Below are positions 30,881 through 42,748 of a stretch of DNA of 64,000 nucleotides, piece after piece. The first letter of the stretch is position 1. Every line of letters begins with the position of its first letter. Location of the stretch: the NCBI GenBank assembly GCA_030431525.1, contig JAUIJC010000013.1, forward strand, positions 1-64,000. The letters run 5' to 3'. The notes under the pieces are model-generated. The model saw only the letters and a program-made list of their open reading frames with translations. It searched no databases and had not been told where the DNA came from. A program made the translations under genes and the position numbers. The DNA is from Bacteroidia bacterium. Its GTDB lineage: Bacteria > Bacteroidota > Bacteroidia > Cytophagales > JAAEPT01.

Positions 30881-31127
30881 AAGGAATAATGTTTTTTTCA
30901 GAATGTCGCTATGGAAGCAAAAATCGATGCGAAATAGTTTCCTGCTGAAGCATTTCGTTGGGATGTGATTTTTTCTGGATGAAAGAATAGTGCCTTCAGA
31001 CGGGCTGAGGGGAGATTTTGTTAAAAACTTCAATTTTTTTCAGAAGGGACTAGGGGTGTTTTCGGTTTGGTGCGTCTTGGTTGTGTAAGCGCTACAGAAA
31101 ATCGATGAAGACTTAGATTCCCTTGTG

Positions 31128-32342
31128 ATGAAGATGATTTCCTCCTTACGATTCATGCTTTCCCTGCTTTTGGCAGGAAGCTCGATGATGGCATTTGCCC
31201 AAAACGATTCAGATTCTACCAAAAAGTCTGACAACCTTCAGTTGTTCGGGCTCTACAACCAAACTGGCGGGGATATCCGCTATCCTCAACTTGGTGCCTT
31301 GGGCAACCGCGTTGATGGCGAGTTCAGCTCAGTACAAATTGGCGGTGTGTTTAACCAAGTCGGCAAAGATGTCGATGGTTTTCAGCTTGCTGGTTTTGTG
31401 AACCAAAATGGCGGGGCTTTTTACGGAGCTCAGTTTTCAGGACTCTATAACCAAGTGGCTGATTCCGTAAATGGCTTCCAAGCCACAGGATTGGTAAACA
31501 ATGTCGGTGGAAGGCTGGACGGTTTCCAAGGAGCTGGACTTGCAAACCTTGCCTTGGATTCGGCCAGAGGGGTTCAGGCATCTGGAATTTTCAACTTTAA
31601 CAAAGGTTTGAACGGTGCCCAAATGGCCGGAGTGTTCAACCAATCGGAAGCTGTCAGGGGCATCCAAATGGCTGGGGTATTCAATCACGCCACAGACTTG
31701 GATGGCGCCCAAATCTCAGGCGTATGCAACCTTTCGCGGGGAACGGTGGACGGATTCCAATTGGCCGGTGTGCTGAACATTGCCAAAAAGTTGAAAGGTG
31801 TGCAGTTGGGTGTCATCAATGTGGTGGACACCGTGGAGAGTGGTGCGCCGATTGGCATCGTCAATATTGTACGCCGAGGTGGTCTTCATTCCTTTGGCCT
31901 TTCGGCCAATGAGGTGACCCAAATCAACGCGCATTTCCGATTAGGAACAAAGGCCTTTTTCACTTCCGTGTTGGCGGGAACAGGCTATGCCAACGACCGC
32001 ATGGTGACTACAGCTGGACTTGGCTTGGGTCACATCTTCACCTTGAGCGAACGTTCTGGGCTGATGCTGGAGGGAAGTTGCAGTTACCTGTTTGACGATG
32101 GCTGGCCATTTGGTCAGGAGAATGGCACCACCAATTTGCTCAATAAATTGGCCCTCAGCTACAACTATAACCTTGGTGGAAACACGACCCTCTATCTCGG
32201 TCCTGTGGTGAATGTCCATGTGTGGGATGCCACCAATGAGGGTTATACGCCAGTTGCTCCTTACACGTTTTTTGATGAGACCTCAAGCCAAGGCCTTCGG
32301 GTGCAAGGCTGGGTTGGAGGCACCGCCGGAATCATGTTCTAA
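31128..32342 (+). CDS. LA_2272-type surface repeat protein
   Basis: 404 residues from the ATG at 31128 (a second ATG lies one codon before, at 31125), with signal peptide MKMISSLRFMLSLLLAGSSM ... AFAQ. Residues about 38-240 consist of roughly twelve 15-16-residue repeats of pattern [AS]-G-[VL]-x-N-x(7-9)-G-x-Q-[LMA], for example AGVFNQSEAVRGIQM and SGVCNLSRGTVDGFQL. The remaining 150 residues look like an outer-membrane barrel (LGLGHIFTLSERSGLMLEG ... GGTAGIMF). I place it in the LA_2272/LA_2273 surface-repeat family named from Leptospira. It shares its repeat with the STN protein at 35422-36939. Confidence 0.72.
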   Translation: MKMISSLRFMLSLLLAGSSMMAFAQNDSDSTKKSDNLQLFGLYNQTGGDIRYPQLGALGNRVDGEFSSVQIGGVFNQVGKDVDGFQLAGFVNQNGGAFYGAQFSGLYNQVADSVNGFQATGLVNNVGGRLDGFQGAGLANLALDSARGVQASGIFNFNKGLNGAQMAGVFNQSEAVRGIQMAGVFNHATDLDGAQISGVCNLSRGTVDGFQLAGVLNIAKKLKGVQLGVINVVDTVESGAPIGIVNIVRRGGLHSFGLSANEVTQINAHFRLGTKAFFTSVLAGTGYANDRMVTTAGLGLGHIFTLSERSGLMLEGSCSYLFDDGWPFGQENGTTNLLNKLALSYNYNLGGNTTLYLGPVVNVHVWDATNEGYTPVAPYTFFDETSSQGLRVQGWVGGTAGIMF

Positions 32343-32386
32343 TTAACGAGGATAGAAATCACCTCAATTAACACATCAATTGATTT

Positions 32387-32543
32387 TTAACCACGGAGAA
32401 TGGGAGGAAAGGAGCAGATGATGGTTTCGAGGAGGAGAGGCAAAGCCTCAAGAGGATTGGGAGATACTTATAGCTCCTCCACATGATAAACCTCTCCTTT
32501 TTGAACAATATGAGCCTCCTTTCCTCCTTCTCTCCGTGGTTAA
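32387..32543. repeat. CCACGGAG-type intergenic inverted repeat, copy 1
   Basis: The left arm begins TTAACCACGGAGAATGGGAG, and the right arm ends with its inverse, CTCTCCGTGGTTAA. Arms are about 28 bp, rich in GGAGGAAAGG / CCTTTCCTCC. The centre is about 100 bp and itself purine/pyrimidine-skewed. It fills the gap between the repeat-protein gene and the DUF2807 gene. Confidence 0.88.
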
Positions 32544-32591
32544 AAAAACGACTTTCTTACTTCTCAAATCTTACTTCTAAATTTCAAATCC

Positions 32592-33395
32592 ATGAAAAAG
32601 TTTTCAAACAACCTCAGTGCCCTCGTGGTCGCATCATTTTTCACCTTTTTGTTTAGTTCTTGCGGAGATAACGGTCTTTGCAAACGAGGTAAAGGCGGTG
32701 AAGTCGTTCGGGAAATCGACCTCGAATCCGTTACTGCCATTGAGGCAAATGGTTCCTTTGATGTCGTGGTCATGTACGGTGACGAGCAAAAAATCGAGGC
32801 CATTGGCAATGATAACATCATTCAGGAGCTCAATACTTCGGTGTCCAACGGCCTCTGGAAAGTGGAGCTGAATGGTGGATGCTATCGCAAATTTGACCTT
32901 GAGGTGCGCATTACTTCCCCAAGGATAAATTCATTGGCGAGCCGTGGTTCGGGCGATTTAAAAGTGAAATCTTTGTCGAGCGACTTGGAAAGCCTGAAGT
33001 TGAAATCTACTGGAAGCGGTGAGCTTACTGGCGATGTTGATGTAATGGTGAATGGAAATGCGGAAATCATTTCCACCGGTAGCGGAGGCATTGAGTGGGA
33101 TGGATTGTCTGCCGACGAGCTTGAAGTGGAAGTTACCGGTAGCGGTGATGTGGAAATCAACCGAGGTGCTGTGGCTGACCAAGATGTAGTGGTGACGGGC
33201 TCAGGAAATTACGAGGCCTATGGCCTAAACAGCGAGGAGGCCAAAGTGAAAGTGACGGGTTCAGGCAATGCCTTGGTGAATGTGGATACGGAATTGAAAG
33301 CAACTATCCGAGGTAGTGGCGATATTCGTTACAAAGGAAATCCGGCCCTTTACATTGAGGAGGATTCAGGCTCTGGCCAAGTGCAGAAAAAGTAA
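32592..33395 (+). CDS. DUF2807 (head-GIN) lipoprotein
   Basis: 267 residues, with lipoprotein signal MKKFSNNLSALVVASFFTFL followed by FSSC (acylation at about Cys24). The mature region is a right-handed beta-structure of about twelve short repeats ending in GSG or TGSG (ASRGSGDLKVKS, KSTGSGELTGD, VTGSGDVEINR). This is typical of the DUF2807 putative auto-transporter adhesin/head-GIN family. Presumably surface- or periplasm-exposed; the role is unknown. It sits just upstream of the ECF sigma gene, within the surface-protein cluster. Confidence 0.86.
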   Translation: MKKFSNNLSALVVASFFTFLFSSCGDNGLCKRGKGGEVVREIDLESVTAIEANGSFDVVVMYGDEQKIEAIGNDNIIQELNTSVSNGLWKVELNGGCYRKFDLEVRITSPRINSLASRGSGDLKVKSLSSDLESLKLKSTGSGELTGDVDVMVNGNAEIISTGSGGIEWDGLSADELEVEVTGSGDVEINRGAVADQDVVVTGSGNYEAYGLNSEEAKVKVTGSGNALVNVDTELKATIRGSGDIRYKGNPALYIEEDSGSGQVQKK

Positions 33396-33423
33396 TAGGC
33401 GAAATTTGAGTCTCATTCGGTTC

Positions 33424-33450
33424 CGTAGCGTCGGGTTTTATACCCGACGT
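33424..33450. repeat. Solitary hairpin related to the modular element (CGTCGGGT type)
   Basis: Inverted repeat CGTCGGGT-TTTAT-ACCCGACG preceded by GTAG, directly downstream of the DUF2807 gene. The same module, as CGTCAGGT-TTCAT-ACCTGACG, is hairpin 3 of the element at 49285. Confidence 0.75.
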
Positions 33451-33547
33451 TTTCAAAATGCCCGATTTCAATCCATCGCATCCAAATATGGAACACCGCA
33501 ATGCCTTCCATGAACCATCATCCATCAACTAATAACCTCCACCTCCC

Positions 33548-34159
33548 ATGCTAAACGAGCAACCACAGACCAAAGAGCACCTGCGATGGTGGCGGGCCAT
33601 GCAAGGGGGCGACCAACAAGCCATGAAACGCTTGTTTGAGGCCTATTACCAAGCGCTTTGTGCTTATGCCTTTCGGTGGATGAACAGCCATTCGGCCGTG
33701 GAGGAATTGGTTCAAGACCTGTTTTGCGACCTTTGGGAAAAGCGGGGAAGAAATACCGAGATTCAATCCGTAAAGGCTTATCTGTATCGGTCGGTGCAGA
33801 ATCGTTGCCTTTCGGCCTTGCGTCATCAATCGGTGCGCGAGGTGTATGCCCAGTCCGAAATCAAACGCCATTTGGATGCTGATTTAGCCTCTGATATGAG
33901 GGATTTCGAATTGGAGGATACCATCCAAGAAACGCTTACCAATTTGCCTGACCAATGTCGGATAGTTTTCGAGATGAGTCGGTTTGAGGGGAAGAAATAC
34001 CGAGAGATTGCCGAGGCCTTGGACATCTCCGTGAAGACGGTGGAAAACCACATGGGCAAAGCGTTGAGCCGGTTTCGAACGGTGTTGCAGGATTACCTTC
34101 CGCTCTTCATTCTCTTTTCGGGCTTATTGCCTTTCCTGTTCAAGTCTCTAACTGTATAA
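33548..34159 (+). CDS. ECF-family RNA polymerase sigma factor with hydrophobic C-terminal tail
   Basis: 203 residues. Sigma region 2 spans about residues 25-95 (AYAFRWMNSHSAVEELVQDLFCDLWEKR) and region 4 about 125-180 (IQETLTNLPDQCRIVFEMSRFEGKKYREIAEALDISVKTVENHM). It belongs to the Bacteroidota ECF group that pairs with FecR-type anti-sigma factors. The last 20 residues are strongly hydrophobic (LPLFILFSGLLPFLFKSL), a possible membrane tether. The fecR gene starts 12 bp later on the same strand. Confidence 0.92.
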   Translation: MLNEQPQTKEHLRWWRAMQGGDQQAMKRLFEAYYQALCAYAFRWMNSHSAVEELVQDLFCDLWEKRGRNTEIQSVKAYLYRSVQNRCLSALRHQSVREVYAQSEIKRHLDADLASDMRDFELEDTIQETLTNLPDQCRIVFEMSRFEGKKYREIAEALDISVKTVENHMGKALSRFRTVLQDYLPLFILFSGLLPFLFKSLTV

Positions 34160-34171
34160 CGTGTCGCAATC

Positions 34172-35278
34172 ATGAATCAAACAACCCAAATTGAACAGCT
34201 GGCTCGTTATTTTTCCGGAGAGGCGTCTGCGACCGAACGTGAGCAGGTGGAAGCTTGGCGGGCCGAATCAACCGAGAACCAGCAAATGTTTGACAGCCAT
34301 TTTCTTGCTTGGCAGTTGACGAAACGTGCGGGTGCCAAGAACATCGCTTCACCTTCTTCCTTTAATACCGAAAAGGCGTGGTCCAACATGGAAAAACGCC
34401 TTGGCTTTGAGCCTGAAACCTCGGAAAGCATCGACGAAAAAAAGACCAAAGTCCGAGAAATTGGAGGAGCTTGGAGGGCCTTACGTATGCTTCCCTATGT
34501 CGCAATTTTGGTGGTGGGAATGGGCGGTGGCTTTTGGTTGATAAAGACCATTAATTCCAAAATCGGAGAATTCGATAAGCCTGATATCGTTGAGAACAAG
34601 CAACCCGAAACGGCTCCTGTATTTTCCACCATGAAAATGGGCGAGGACGTTGGTGAGTTGCATTTGGCCGACAATTCAGTGGTGTCATTGCGCCAAGGGG
34701 GAGAGCTTCGTTTCCCACAGAGTTTTGACGGAGAAATCCGAAAAGTGTATTTGACAGGGAGCGCCTTCTTCGAGGTGGAACGCGATACCAACCATCCATT
34801 TGTGGTGGAAACTCCACGAGGTATGGTGCAGGTGTTGGGCACTTCGTTTTATGTCAATGCCGAGAGCTCTGAGCAGTTGGAAGTGACTGTGAAGTCTGGA
34901 AAGGTGGCCGTGTATGCGAACAAAGCCCATTTAGGTCAGCTTAAATCAGCCATTCCAATCGAGGCAGGCCAGCGCGTGGTGGTCAATAAGGAAGGCGTGA
35001 AGTTGGAGACCAACAACGACCCGAATATGCTGGCGTGGAAAAGCAAGGTGTTGCGCTTCCGCAACACGCCATTGCCAGAGGTCATCGGGACGCTTTCAGA
35101 TTATTACCAACGTCCGATTGTGCTGAGCAAGAAGTCTGGTTTGCAGGCTTGCAAGTTCACCGGAAAGTACCGCGATAAACCGCTCCATGTTGTTTTGGAG
35201 AGCTTGGAAACCATTTATGGGGCCAAAATTAAAGAGGAGAAAGGCGTGGTTTACGTGGAGGAAGGGCGTTGTCCTTGA
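34172..35278 (+). CDS. FecR-family anti-sigma factor
   Basis: 368 residues. A cytoplasmic N-terminal domain (about 1-105, QLARYFSGEASATEREQVEAWR) binds the sigma factor in related systems; one membrane helix lies near 108-125 (MLPYVAILVVGMGGGFWLI). The periplasmic FecR domain is at about 150-265 (LADNSVVSLRQGGELRFPQ, GSAFFEVERDTNHPFVVET, VQVLGTSFYV), and the DUF4974-type C-terminus at about 295-365 (FRNTPLPEVIGTLSDYY). It should hold the preceding ECF sigma factor inactive until an envelope signal arrives, normally through the STN domain of an outer-membrane protein. The next gene encodes such an STN domain. Confidence 0.93.
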   Translation: MNQTTQIEQLARYFSGEASATEREQVEAWRAESTENQQMFDSHFLAWQLTKRAGAKNIASPSSFNTEKAWSNMEKRLGFEPETSESIDEKKTKVREIGGAWRALRMLPYVAILVVGMGGGFWLIKTINSKIGEFDKPDIVENKQPETAPVFSTMKMGEDVGELHLADNSVVSLRQGGELRFPQSFDGEIRKVYLTGSAFFEVERDTNHPFVVETPRGMVQVLGTSFYVNAESSEQLEVTVKSGKVAVYANKAHLGQLKSAIPIEAGQRVVVNKEGVKLETNNDPNMLAWKSKVLRFRNTPLPEVIGTLSDYYQRPIVLSKKSGLQACKFTGKYRDKPLHVVLESLETIYGAKIKEEKGVVYVEEGRCP

Positions 35279-35297
35279 TGAAGAAAAAGAGTTATAG

Positions 35298-35411
35298 AAC
35301 CACAGAGGTCACAGAGGAAGGGAGATTAGGAGGCCTCTTATTCTCAAACAATATAGTTGCTGAAGAATGGGGAGTCTCCTAGACCTCCTTTCCTCTGTGA
35401 CCTCTGTGGTT
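35298..35411. repeat. CCACGGAG-type intergenic inverted repeat, copy 2 (divergent)
   Basis: AACCACAGAGGTCACAGAGG at the left and its inverse CCTCTGTGACCTCTGTGGTT at the right, a 20-bp perfect inverted repeat. The inner arms are GGAGATTAGGAGGCCTC-like. It lies between fecR and the STN gene, inside a likely operon. Confidence 0.88.
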
Positions 35412-35421
35412 AATATCCTTA

Positions 35422-36939
35422 ATGGTTTTAAGCTCCGATTTGAAAGACAGTGAAGTGCATTTAAAAAAACGACTTTTTATCCTCCTCTTTTGGGGGATGG
35501 CGCAGTGGGCCGTGGGGCAAAACCTCCTCGAAAAGCATGTCAGTTATTCGGCATCCAACCAACCGCTTTCTCTGGTGATTGACGACCTGAGCGAGCAACT
35601 TGGTTTCGACTATTCCTACAACCCAAGTCTTGAGGGCATGGCGGACAATATGACGGTTCGCTATGCCCATTTGCCGTTGAAATCCGTGCTGGATGACCTG
35701 TTCAAAGGAAAGCCTATTACCTATCAGGTGAAGGGCCAGCAATTGATTTTGAAGGAAAGGAAAGCTCCCAAAAAACCTGTTTCAGCCAGCCAAACCATTT
35801 ATGGAAACATCATGGTGGCCGACAGTACAGATAGCCCTGTGGCGGGCGTGACCGTGAAGGAATTGAACCTCGGTATATCCACCGTTTCCGATGCCAAGGG
35901 CAATTTTTTGATGGTGATTCCTAACCCTGATTACGAGGTGAAACTTCGTTTTTCAGCTCCCGATTACCTTACAAAGTCTCTCAATTTTAATGTGAAAAGC
36001 ACCAAGCGGGTCGTGGTTCGTTTGGAAAAGGAAGCTGTCCCTGAGCCAATTTCTCCACCACAGGAAAAGGATACGGTGGTCATTCAAACGCCAAGTCCTC
36101 CAGCCGAAAAACTCGAAGAGGCGTCCGCTCCTTGGGAAGATTCCTTGGCGGAAGCCTACCGTGACAAACGAATTGAGGAAGAAGGATTGTTGCGTCCTGT
36201 TTATGAATCCAAGCTGGTGCAAAGCGTACTTTCTTTGGATTTCCTGCGTCGCCACACCCGCGACGATAGCCTGTTTTATTCTCGTGCTCAGTTAACGCTT
36301 TTACCACCAACGGGCACGAATGGTAGGGAATCGGGGAGGTCTATCAACCATTTGTCACTCAACTTGCTCGGTGGTTACTCGGCAGGGGTGCAAGGCTTGG
36401 AGCTGAGCGGATTGCTGGCGATTAACCGTTTTAACGTGTTGGGTGTGCAAGGCTCTGGTTTGGCCAGTTTGACGGGTGGAAAAATGCACGGACTTAGTGC
36501 CAGCGGACTTTTGAATACTGTGAAATTGGATGTTCAGGGCGCACAGCTTTCAGGCTTGTTCAACTCCGCAGGTATTGATTTGCGTGGTGTTCAAATCTCT
36601 GGATTGGCCAACAATGTGGTAGCGTCTTTTCACGGCGTGCAAATCACGGGCGTGTATAACCGCGCCTCTGGGCAGGGAAAAGGCTTGCAGATTGCTGGCG
36701 TGTGCAACCACATTCGGGGAAATATGCAAGGCTGGCAACTTTCTACCCTCAACATTGTGGAAGGAAACACTTCTGGTTTTCAGATTGGCGTGTTCAACTT
36801 CAGCCGTGGAAAAATCAAGGGGCTTCAATTTGGCCTTATCAACTATGCCGATGATTCTGATGGTTACCAAATTGGGCTCATTAACATCAATAGGAAAGCG
36901 AAGGTGCCAGTGATGCTGTTGTTGTTGAAAGGGGGCTGA
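35422..36939 (+). CDS. STN + carboxypeptidase-regulatory-like domain + surface-repeat protein
   Basis: 505 residues from the ATG at 35422; a GTG at 35455 would start nearer the signal peptide (LKKRLFILLFWGMAQWAVGQ). The STN (secretin/TonB short N-terminal) domain covers about residues 38-112 (YSASNQPLSLVIDDLSEQLGFDYSYNPSL). A CarboxypepD_reg-like beta-sandwich follows (about 128-200), then a Pro/Glu-rich linker. From about 300 to 490 there are about eleven 15-16-residue repeats (SGLFNSAGIDLRGVQI, AGVCNHIRGNMQGWQL). No TonB-receptor plug or 22-strand barrel is present. In Fec-like systems the STN domain signals to FecR, so this is the likely sensor of the cluster. Confidence 0.8.
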   Translation: MVLSSDLKDSEVHLKKRLFILLFWGMAQWAVGQNLLEKHVSYSASNQPLSLVIDDLSEQLGFDYSYNPSLEGMADNMTVRYAHLPLKSVLDDLFKGKPITYQVKGQQLILKERKAPKKPVSASQTIYGNIMVADSTDSPVAGVTVKELNLGISTVSDAKGNFLMVIPNPDYEVKLRFSAPDYLTKSLNFNVKSTKRVVVRLEKEAVPEPISPPQEKDTVVIQTPSPPAEKLEEASAPWEDSLAEAYRDKRIEEEGLLRPVYESKLVQSVLSLDFLRRHTRDDSLFYSRAQLTLLPPTGTNGRESGRSINHLSLNLLGGYSAGVQGLELSGLLAINRFNVLGVQGSGLASLTGGKMHGLSASGLLNTVKLDVQGAQLSGLFNSAGIDLRGVQISGLANNVVASFHGVQITGVYNRASGQGKGLQIAGVCNHIRGNMQGWQLSTLNIVEGNTSGFQIGVFNFSRGKIKGLQFGLINYADDSDGYQIGLININRKAKVPVMLLLLKGG

Positions 36940-37962: not shown

Positions 37963-38291
37963 AGGGGTAGATTTATAGGAGGAACAGCGCAATGGACAAA
38001 GGCGTTCTCCCAAAAGATAGAAAAAGCTCACGCCTTTTGCCCCATTATTTTTCGCTCTAACTTGCCAAAAAAGCACATTTCGATTTCTGGAGAGAACACA
38101 GAGGAAGACAGGAAAGGAGGGCTGGCCGAAGTAAAATATTTAACCACGGAGGGAAGGAGAAAGGGAGACGTACATGGTGTAAAAACCTAAGTCAAGGGTT
38201 TAAGACCACAGTTTTTTGGACATTGATTGTCTCCTTTCCTCCCTTTCTCCGTGGTTAACTTCCGAATTGTTCTCATGCTAACATAACTCAT
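37963..38291. other. Gene-free interval filled by repeat sequence
   Basis: A 329-bp gap between the small lipoprotein and dinB. Its left part (37963-38090) shows no structure I recognise. A half-copy of the CCACGGAG-type arm lies at 38095-38125 (ACAGAGGAAGACAGGAAAGG), and a full copy fills 38140-38258. No RNA gene is evident. Confidence 0.7.
38140..38258. repeat. CCACGGAG-type intergenic inverted repeat, copy 3
   Basis: TTAACCACGGAGGGAAGGAG at the left, and CCCTTTCTCCGTGGTTAA at the right. The interior, including GGGAGACGTACATGGTG and CACAGTTTTTTGGACA, is nearly identical to copy 4 at 42637, so these two descend from the same element. Confidence 0.92.
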
Positions 38292-42636: not shown

Positions 42637-42748
42637 TAACCACGGAGAGAAGGAGAAAGGGAGACGTACATGGTGGAAAAACCTAAAGGGGTTAAGCCCA
42701 CAGTTTTTTGGACAATGATTGTCTCCTTTCCTCCCTTTCTCTGTGGTT
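42637..42748. repeat. CCACGGAG-type intergenic inverted repeat, copy 4
   Basis: TTAACCACGGAGAGAAGGAG at the left, TTTCTCTGTGGTT at the right; the interior matches copy 3 almost base for base. It lies between the desaturase terminator and the haemoglobin gene stop. Confidence 0.92.

Follow-up and report, generated by a model that had tools for sequence, protein, structure and literature searches.

A FecI/FecR-type gene cluster in a Bacteroidia bacterium with a repeat-bearing STN protein as its proposed transducer

The window analysed in the present study, a stretch of 64,000 nt from a Bacteroidia bacterium of the order Cytophagales (assembly GCA_030431525.1, contig JAUIJC010000013.1, positions 1 to 64,000), contains five co-directional genes on its forward strand between 31125 and 36939. 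In order, these encode a free repeat-plus-barrel outer-membrane protein, referred to here as SURF, a DUF2807 lipoprotein, an extracytoplasmic function (ECF) sigma factor, a FecR protein, and an STN protein with LA_2272-type repeats, referred to here as STNR, which is the proposed transducer. The order and the positions of all five genes agree with those given in an earlier note made from the sequence of the window alone, and the arrangement is well beyond chance. The SURF gene (31125..32342), which starts with GTG at 31125 or ATG at 31128, was identified through a match to positions 322-625 of the 626 in the family model (E 9.3e-81), making SURF a paralogue of the C-terminal part of the sensor. 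Its signal peptide and C-terminal Phe were read off the sequence, as were the lipobox and the membrane segment described below. The alignment reaches the C-terminal end of the family model, and SURF thus has a C-terminal barrel segment (31875..32339) that is absent from the STNR of the window. Against LA_2272_repeat, SURF scores 19.2 bits alone and 29.3 bits with its neighbours (cut-off 25). The DUF2807 ('Toastrack') lipoprotein (32592..33395; PF10988, 147.2 bits against a cut-off of 24.2) has the lipobox FSSC, and is followed by the FecI-type ECF sigma factor (33548..34159; TIGR02985, 170.5 bits against a cut-off of 126.4). The FecR-type anti-sigma factor (34172..35278) has one membrane segment and an STN-like periplasmic C-terminal domain, its matches to PF04773 (52 bits) and PF16344 (49 bits) both being above cut-off. 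STNR (35422..36939) is 505 aa long.

Three parts can be recognized in STNR. The STN domain (35512..35757, residues ~31-112) is matched weakly by Pfam and supported at the level of the family. PF07660 is matched by 32 of 38 full-length STNR relatives (best E 8.4e-17), of which 14 also match FecR_C and 22 CarbopepD_reg, the family profile touches the solved STN domains of PilQ and of the ferric-pseudobactin receptor 2a02, and the region has a beta-alpha-beta pattern in the model of a homologue. Next comes a CarboxypepD_reg-like beta-sandwich (35797..36036, residues ~126-205), for which PF13715 gives 30.7 bits, just below its cut-off of 32.2. The third part consists of eleven repeats (36394..36936), with 62.6 bits against the NCBIfam model LA_2272_repeat (NF047436, cut-off 25). 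About eleven repeats after an STN domain and a sandwich had already been described in the earlier note, and this is confirmed with a unit length of 14-16 residues. The VC2662 family model (NF047437) gave only 34.4 bits, below its equivalog cut-off of 140. No plug or TonB-receptor barrel was matched in STNR in the profile searches.

The STNR proteins of relatives are mostly 550-700 aa long, with ~150 residues beyond the repeats. Single-sequence prediction of the window STNR was too poor to use (mean predicted local distance difference test score, pLDDT, 36); the structure model is that of the Algoriphagus antarcticus homologue, made with 94 aligned relatives (mean pLDDT 90.2, predicted template modelling score 0.64). 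Residues 443-589 of this model form an 8-stranded barrel that matches the N-terminal domain of OprF (Z 14.3, root mean square deviation 2.7 over 123 residues) and also resembles NspA, OmpA, and OmpW, the OprF/OmpA match being in sequential order. Residues 109-190 match an MG1-type macroglobulin sandwich (Z 10.9). The repeats have two short strands per unit, as expected of a solenoid, a fold that is barely probed by the Foldseek/VIA structure matches, which cover mainly the barrel and the sandwich. Because the N-terminus of OmpA-type barrels is periplasmic, the model makes it likely that the repeats, the sandwich, and the STN domain are all in the periplasm. A location of the repeats on the cell surface, as previously suggested, is not borne out, since they precede a barrel of this type.

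The window STNR aligns through residue 442 of the model and then ends, exactly before the barrel, and there is no barrel remnant 3′ of its stop codon in the three forward frames. On this alignment, the window copy is atypical in having a sensor without a barrel; the only other short STNR proteins noted (L149 and L150) both run into contig ends. The earlier statement that there is no receptor barrel is therefore correct for a TonB-receptor barrel or plug, but relatives carry a small C-terminal barrel that is absent from the window copy. In a tree of the barrel segment, which is weak, free SURF and STN-bearing proteins do not form two clades, and there are nine label changes, at least four of them forced. 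This is consistent with repeated conversion, and SURF and sensor seem from these sequences to have been interconverted repeatedly.

The relatives came from two sources, whole genomes of the order and named genomes. This sample is skewed to strong matches to the query; the gene neighbourhoods were classified with purpose-built models. Among 115 STNR loci, 100 have a co-directional fecR immediately 5′ of STNR, and an ecf-fecR pair is present in 91. A TonB receptor is found in 51 of these loci, a DUF2807 gene in 44, and a free SURF in 32. The gene order of the window is repeated in Flavihumibacter soli (L116) and in a Sphingobacteriaceae metagenome-assembled genome (MAG; L130); Pedobacter insulae (L134) has it with a single gene added. 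The module was found in Pedobacter, Chitinophaga relatives, Mucilaginibacter, Algoriphagus, and Cyclobacteriaceae, and by gene content the window cluster is a representative of this module, which is conserved in Bacteroidota. The earlier note had proposed an STN domain on a protein other than a TonB receptor, paired with ECF/FecR, and a search for STN-repeat proteins beside such pairs; that pairing is conserved in the relatives. Nothing was found on the LA_2272 family, the promoter, or the module in the open-access literature, beyond which ECF classification papers were not covered, and this is apparently a widespread and so far undescribed signalling system. One typical Bacteroidota module (L149) is on a contig whose label, Azovibrio restrictus, is the name of a betaproteobacterium; incorrect binning of that MAG is the probable cause.

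Association of the module with a promoter was investigated through a gapped-word comparison of the regions upstream of module TonB-receptor, SURF, and DUF2807 genes with those of 533 other genes. The top word, TAGGGG-N16-TGTC, is present before 48 of the 112 module genes and 3 of the 533 others, and the putative promoter pattern is TAGGGGTA-N13-TTGTC. A matrix was derived from 47 sites, mostly 40-60 nt ahead of the start codon (consensus caTAGGGGTAAA...GTTGTCttA), and a score of at least 10 bits was counted as a site; some of the genomes scanned later had also contributed to the motif, and the species are related. The ecf genes were outside the training of the matrix, and the motif precedes 59 of 81 module ecf genes as against none of 9 non-module ecf genes. 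In module loci it is also present before the TonB receptor (31/51), SURF (17/29), and DUF2807 (15/32). Among the other genes, 8 of 533 have a match, several of these being module neighbours missed by the models, such as Algoriphagus DUF4097/DUF2807-like proteins. Only 2 of 45 STNR genes are preceded by the motif; STNR lies inside the sigma operon, and the earlier suggestion that it is a separate target of the sigma factor is not supported. Variants of the -35 element are consistent within single genomes, being TCAGGG in Mucilaginibacter, common to TonB receptor, SURF, and STNR, and TAAGGG in Algoriphagus, at ecf and an adhesin-like or DUF2807-like neighbour gene. Three Mucilaginibacter loci (L155, L156, and L157) have a rearranged module, in which STNR is opposite in direction to fecR-ecf, and in L156 and L157 a promoter of the variant type precedes STNR itself.

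The exact pattern occurs at 39 sites in 25 genomes with the module (5 in the reversed control) and at 2 sites in 25 genomes without it (2 in the control). It is present in 18 of the 25 genomes with the module and 2 of the 25 without (P 6e-6). Twenty of the 39 sites are outside the module (P 0.004 against the control). The genes preceded by exact-pattern sites are ecf, fecR, DUF2807, TonB-receptor, SURF, and small barrel genes, some of them unlinked to the module. A regulon count by the exact pattern in the window's own genome was rejected, the matches being no more than in the reversed control. A recurrent family of ~200-aa barrel-like secreted proteins with no Pfam match (L210, L222, L223, and L233; minus strand) also occurs at a distance from the module in two genomes, each member having the module promoter before it.

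In the window, a putative sigma-dependent promoter, TAGGGGT-N15-CGTC (TAGGGGTGTTTTCGGTTTGGTGCGTC), is located at 31051..31076 on the forward strand, 75 nt before SURF. The -35 element is exact, and the -10 element, GCGTC, is shared with three relatives (L049, L051, and L058). A loose form of the pattern has six matches in the window's genome, and this site is the sole one at promoter distance before a gene for a signal-peptide protein; three of the remaining five are within genes, and the other two are followed only by short ORFs, 270-398 nt away. From its sequence and position, the 31051 site is the probable promoter of the operon. Together with the conserved promoter in relatives, this near-match supports SURF as a target of the sigma factor, as had been proposed.

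The window also contains four palindromic elements between genes, the ends of which read AACCACRGAG (32384-32546, 35298-35411, 38142-38256, and 42638-42748). The first two sit in gaps of the operon and have arms of 27-31 nt that are 90-96% complementary. The elements are probably a dispersed repeat with two copies within the operon.

The source assembly (4.24 Mb) encodes only two FecR proteins. The other one belongs to locus C22 (G000, L080:1731-6953), an ecf-fecR-lipoprotein-TonB receptor cluster that holds the only other ecf-fecR pair in the genome. The N-terminus of the C22 TonB receptor reads, by eye, as STN-like, whereas Pfam sees only the plug; among 16 plug matches in the source genome, there is no Pfam-visible STN domain on a TonB receptor. 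Since the second FecR is beside its own STN-like TonB receptor, the simplest pairing would be one FecR per STN partner, with STNR the partner of the window FecR. A TonB receptor elsewhere as partner of this FecR, the outcome named earlier as refuting the proposal, finds no support. The TonB receptors adjacent to the module in relatives have a CarboxypepD_reg domain and a plug but no STN match, and 39 of the full-length ones found are of one type, ~785 aa (e.g. L169:7858-10203), with 42-48% identity among the rows compared. This main type was not found in the window's genome, where the sole strong match is a receptor of a different type by a surface lipoprotein gene. The C21 TonB receptor was considered as the missing receptor of the module and rejected, since its identity to the main type is 22%, as against 39-43% for a different type. 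The earlier note had overlooked the barrel of the relatives, the promoter, and the TonB receptor, which roughly one third to one half of the relatives have at the locus.

Known systems provide a framework for these observations. FoxA/FoxR is an example in which a TonB-dependent transducer uses its STN domain to bind the anti-sigma factor at the latter's STN-like end (PMC11637429). Like FecIRA-type systems (FecA-FecR-FecI, FpvA, FoxA), the module has a FecI-type ECF sigma factor, a FecR with an STN-like C-terminal domain, and an STN domain on a partner that is located in the outer membrane or periplasm and encoded alongside. Unlike them, the partner is without a plug or 22-stranded barrel, having instead LA_2272 repeats and, in relatives, the 8-stranded OmpA-like barrel, and ecf itself has the target promoter in most relatives. 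Another likeness is PUMA3 (VreA-VreI-VreR) of Pseudomonas aeruginosa, in which a barrel-less STN protein takes part in signalling (PMC2729926). VreA is a small STN protein (23 kDa) encoded with ECF sigma factor and FecR-type genes and, like the window STNR, has no barrel, although the relatives of STNR do. Its second domain is like TolA/TonB C-termini, whereas STNR has the beta-sandwich and the repeat solenoid, and PUMA3 differs in lineage and target set. LA_2272 surface repeat proteins (NF047436) share the repeat of STNR, but in STNR it is joined to STN and CarboxypepD_reg domains, with the C-terminal barrel in relatives and in SURF. The Toastrack class (DUF2807/DUF4097/DUF2154) has been linked to envelope-stress systems (PMC11237479); the DUF2807 protein of the module belongs to this class, but is a lipoprotein in an ECF/FecR locus and not part of a PspC/Lia system.

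It is likely, therefore, that the cluster is a FecIRA-type cell-surface signalling module in which the transducer is not a TonB-dependent receptor. Gene content, conservation, and promoter association point to this at the sequence level. By analogy with known systems, STNR would be in the periplasm, held in relatives by its own OmpA-like barrel, and its STN domain would touch the STN-like C-terminal domain of FecR. An altered state of the repeat or barrel part of STNR would lead to release of the sigma factor, which would then act on its own operon and on a set of outer-membrane protein genes through TAGGGGTA-N13-TTGTC promoters. In the window, the sigma factor would act at 31051, upstream of SURF, with transcription reading through DUF2807, ecf, fecR, and STNR, and SURF could complete a feedback loop. 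SURF has its repeat-plus-barrel domain in common with the sensor, and it is therefore probable that one and the same condition acts on both sensor and target. The DUF2807 protein, being of a class tied to envelope stress, inclines us to a tentative preferred guess, somewhat short of an even chance, that the signal is the state of the envelope or outer membrane.

A number of observations weigh against this reading. Pfam STN (PF07660) gives the window STNR only 14.9 bits, under the cut-off of 28.4, and this STNR is without the anchoring barrel of its relatives. Five Chitinophaga STNR genes (L121, L125, L126, L127, and L133) have no adjoining ecf or fecR; these sensors are either orphans or rely on a pair encoded at a distance. 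The window promoter site scores 4.2 bits, 9 of the 533 background upstream regions doing at least as well, and the six genome matches to the loose pattern compare with eight for the reversed pattern, which is chance frequency. The case for the site therefore rests on its position, before SURF as in relatives. There are no motif sites before DUF2807, ecf, or STNR in the window, and likely, therefore, read-through from the SURF promoter would serve the whole operon.

The absence of the barrel and the imperfect site could also mean that the window copy is decaying or altered, so that its STNR signals poorly, is a soluble periplasmic transducer, or is anchored via SURF. The abrupt end of STNR at residue 442, with no remnant past the stop codon, the degenerate -10 element, and the lack of a site before ecf are in keeping with this, but the five ORFs are open with normal domains, SURF has kept its barrel, and VreA is a barrel-less STN protein in a working system (PMC2729926); alteration of the copy is therefore thought rather unlikely. 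Less probable still is a split form of TonB signalling, in which STNR contacts a separate, STN-less importing TonB receptor and reports its occupancy to FecR. In 44 of the 115 loci, such a receptor is encoded co-directionally no more than four genes downstream, 39 of the full-length receptors found are of a single type, and the gene has the sigma-type promoter in 31 of 51 cases. However, about half of the loci, including those of Algoriphagus and the window, are without a receptor, the window's genome lacks the main type, and the promoter is also found before SURF and DUF2807.

Least probable, with only a slight chance of being correct, is the version of the earlier note, in which surface-exposed repeats report on the state of surface proteins or on cell contact. 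The name of the NCBI family, 'surface repeat-containing', and the resemblance of a solenoid before a C-terminal barrel to autotransporters would favour it. On the other hand, the barrel matches OprF/OmpA (Z 14.3), with their periplasmic N-terminus, an 8-stranded barrel is too narrow for passage of a folded solenoid, and the STN domain has to be in the periplasm to reach FecR. Cell contact as the signal is not supported.

Bacteroidota have many FecI/FecR pairs, usually presumed to serve TonB-linked uptake. The module is a recurring exception to this assumption, and is a variation on FecIRA-type signalling rather than a new category. With somewhat less than an even chance, it could represent a separate class of surface signalling found across the phylum, whose sensor carries an STN tag and is a paralogue of an outer-membrane protein under the control of the sensor's own sigma factor. 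If so, Bacteroidota would use a rigid arm of repeats in the periplasm to gauge the condition of the outer membrane or periplasm, and not nutrient uptake, and would tune the expression of a few outer-membrane proteins from a promoter dedicated to this regulon. This promoter is sharp enough for target prediction, so that the purpose of the module is open to direct test, and the poorly understood LA_2272-repeat and DUF2807 proteins gain a shared regulator.

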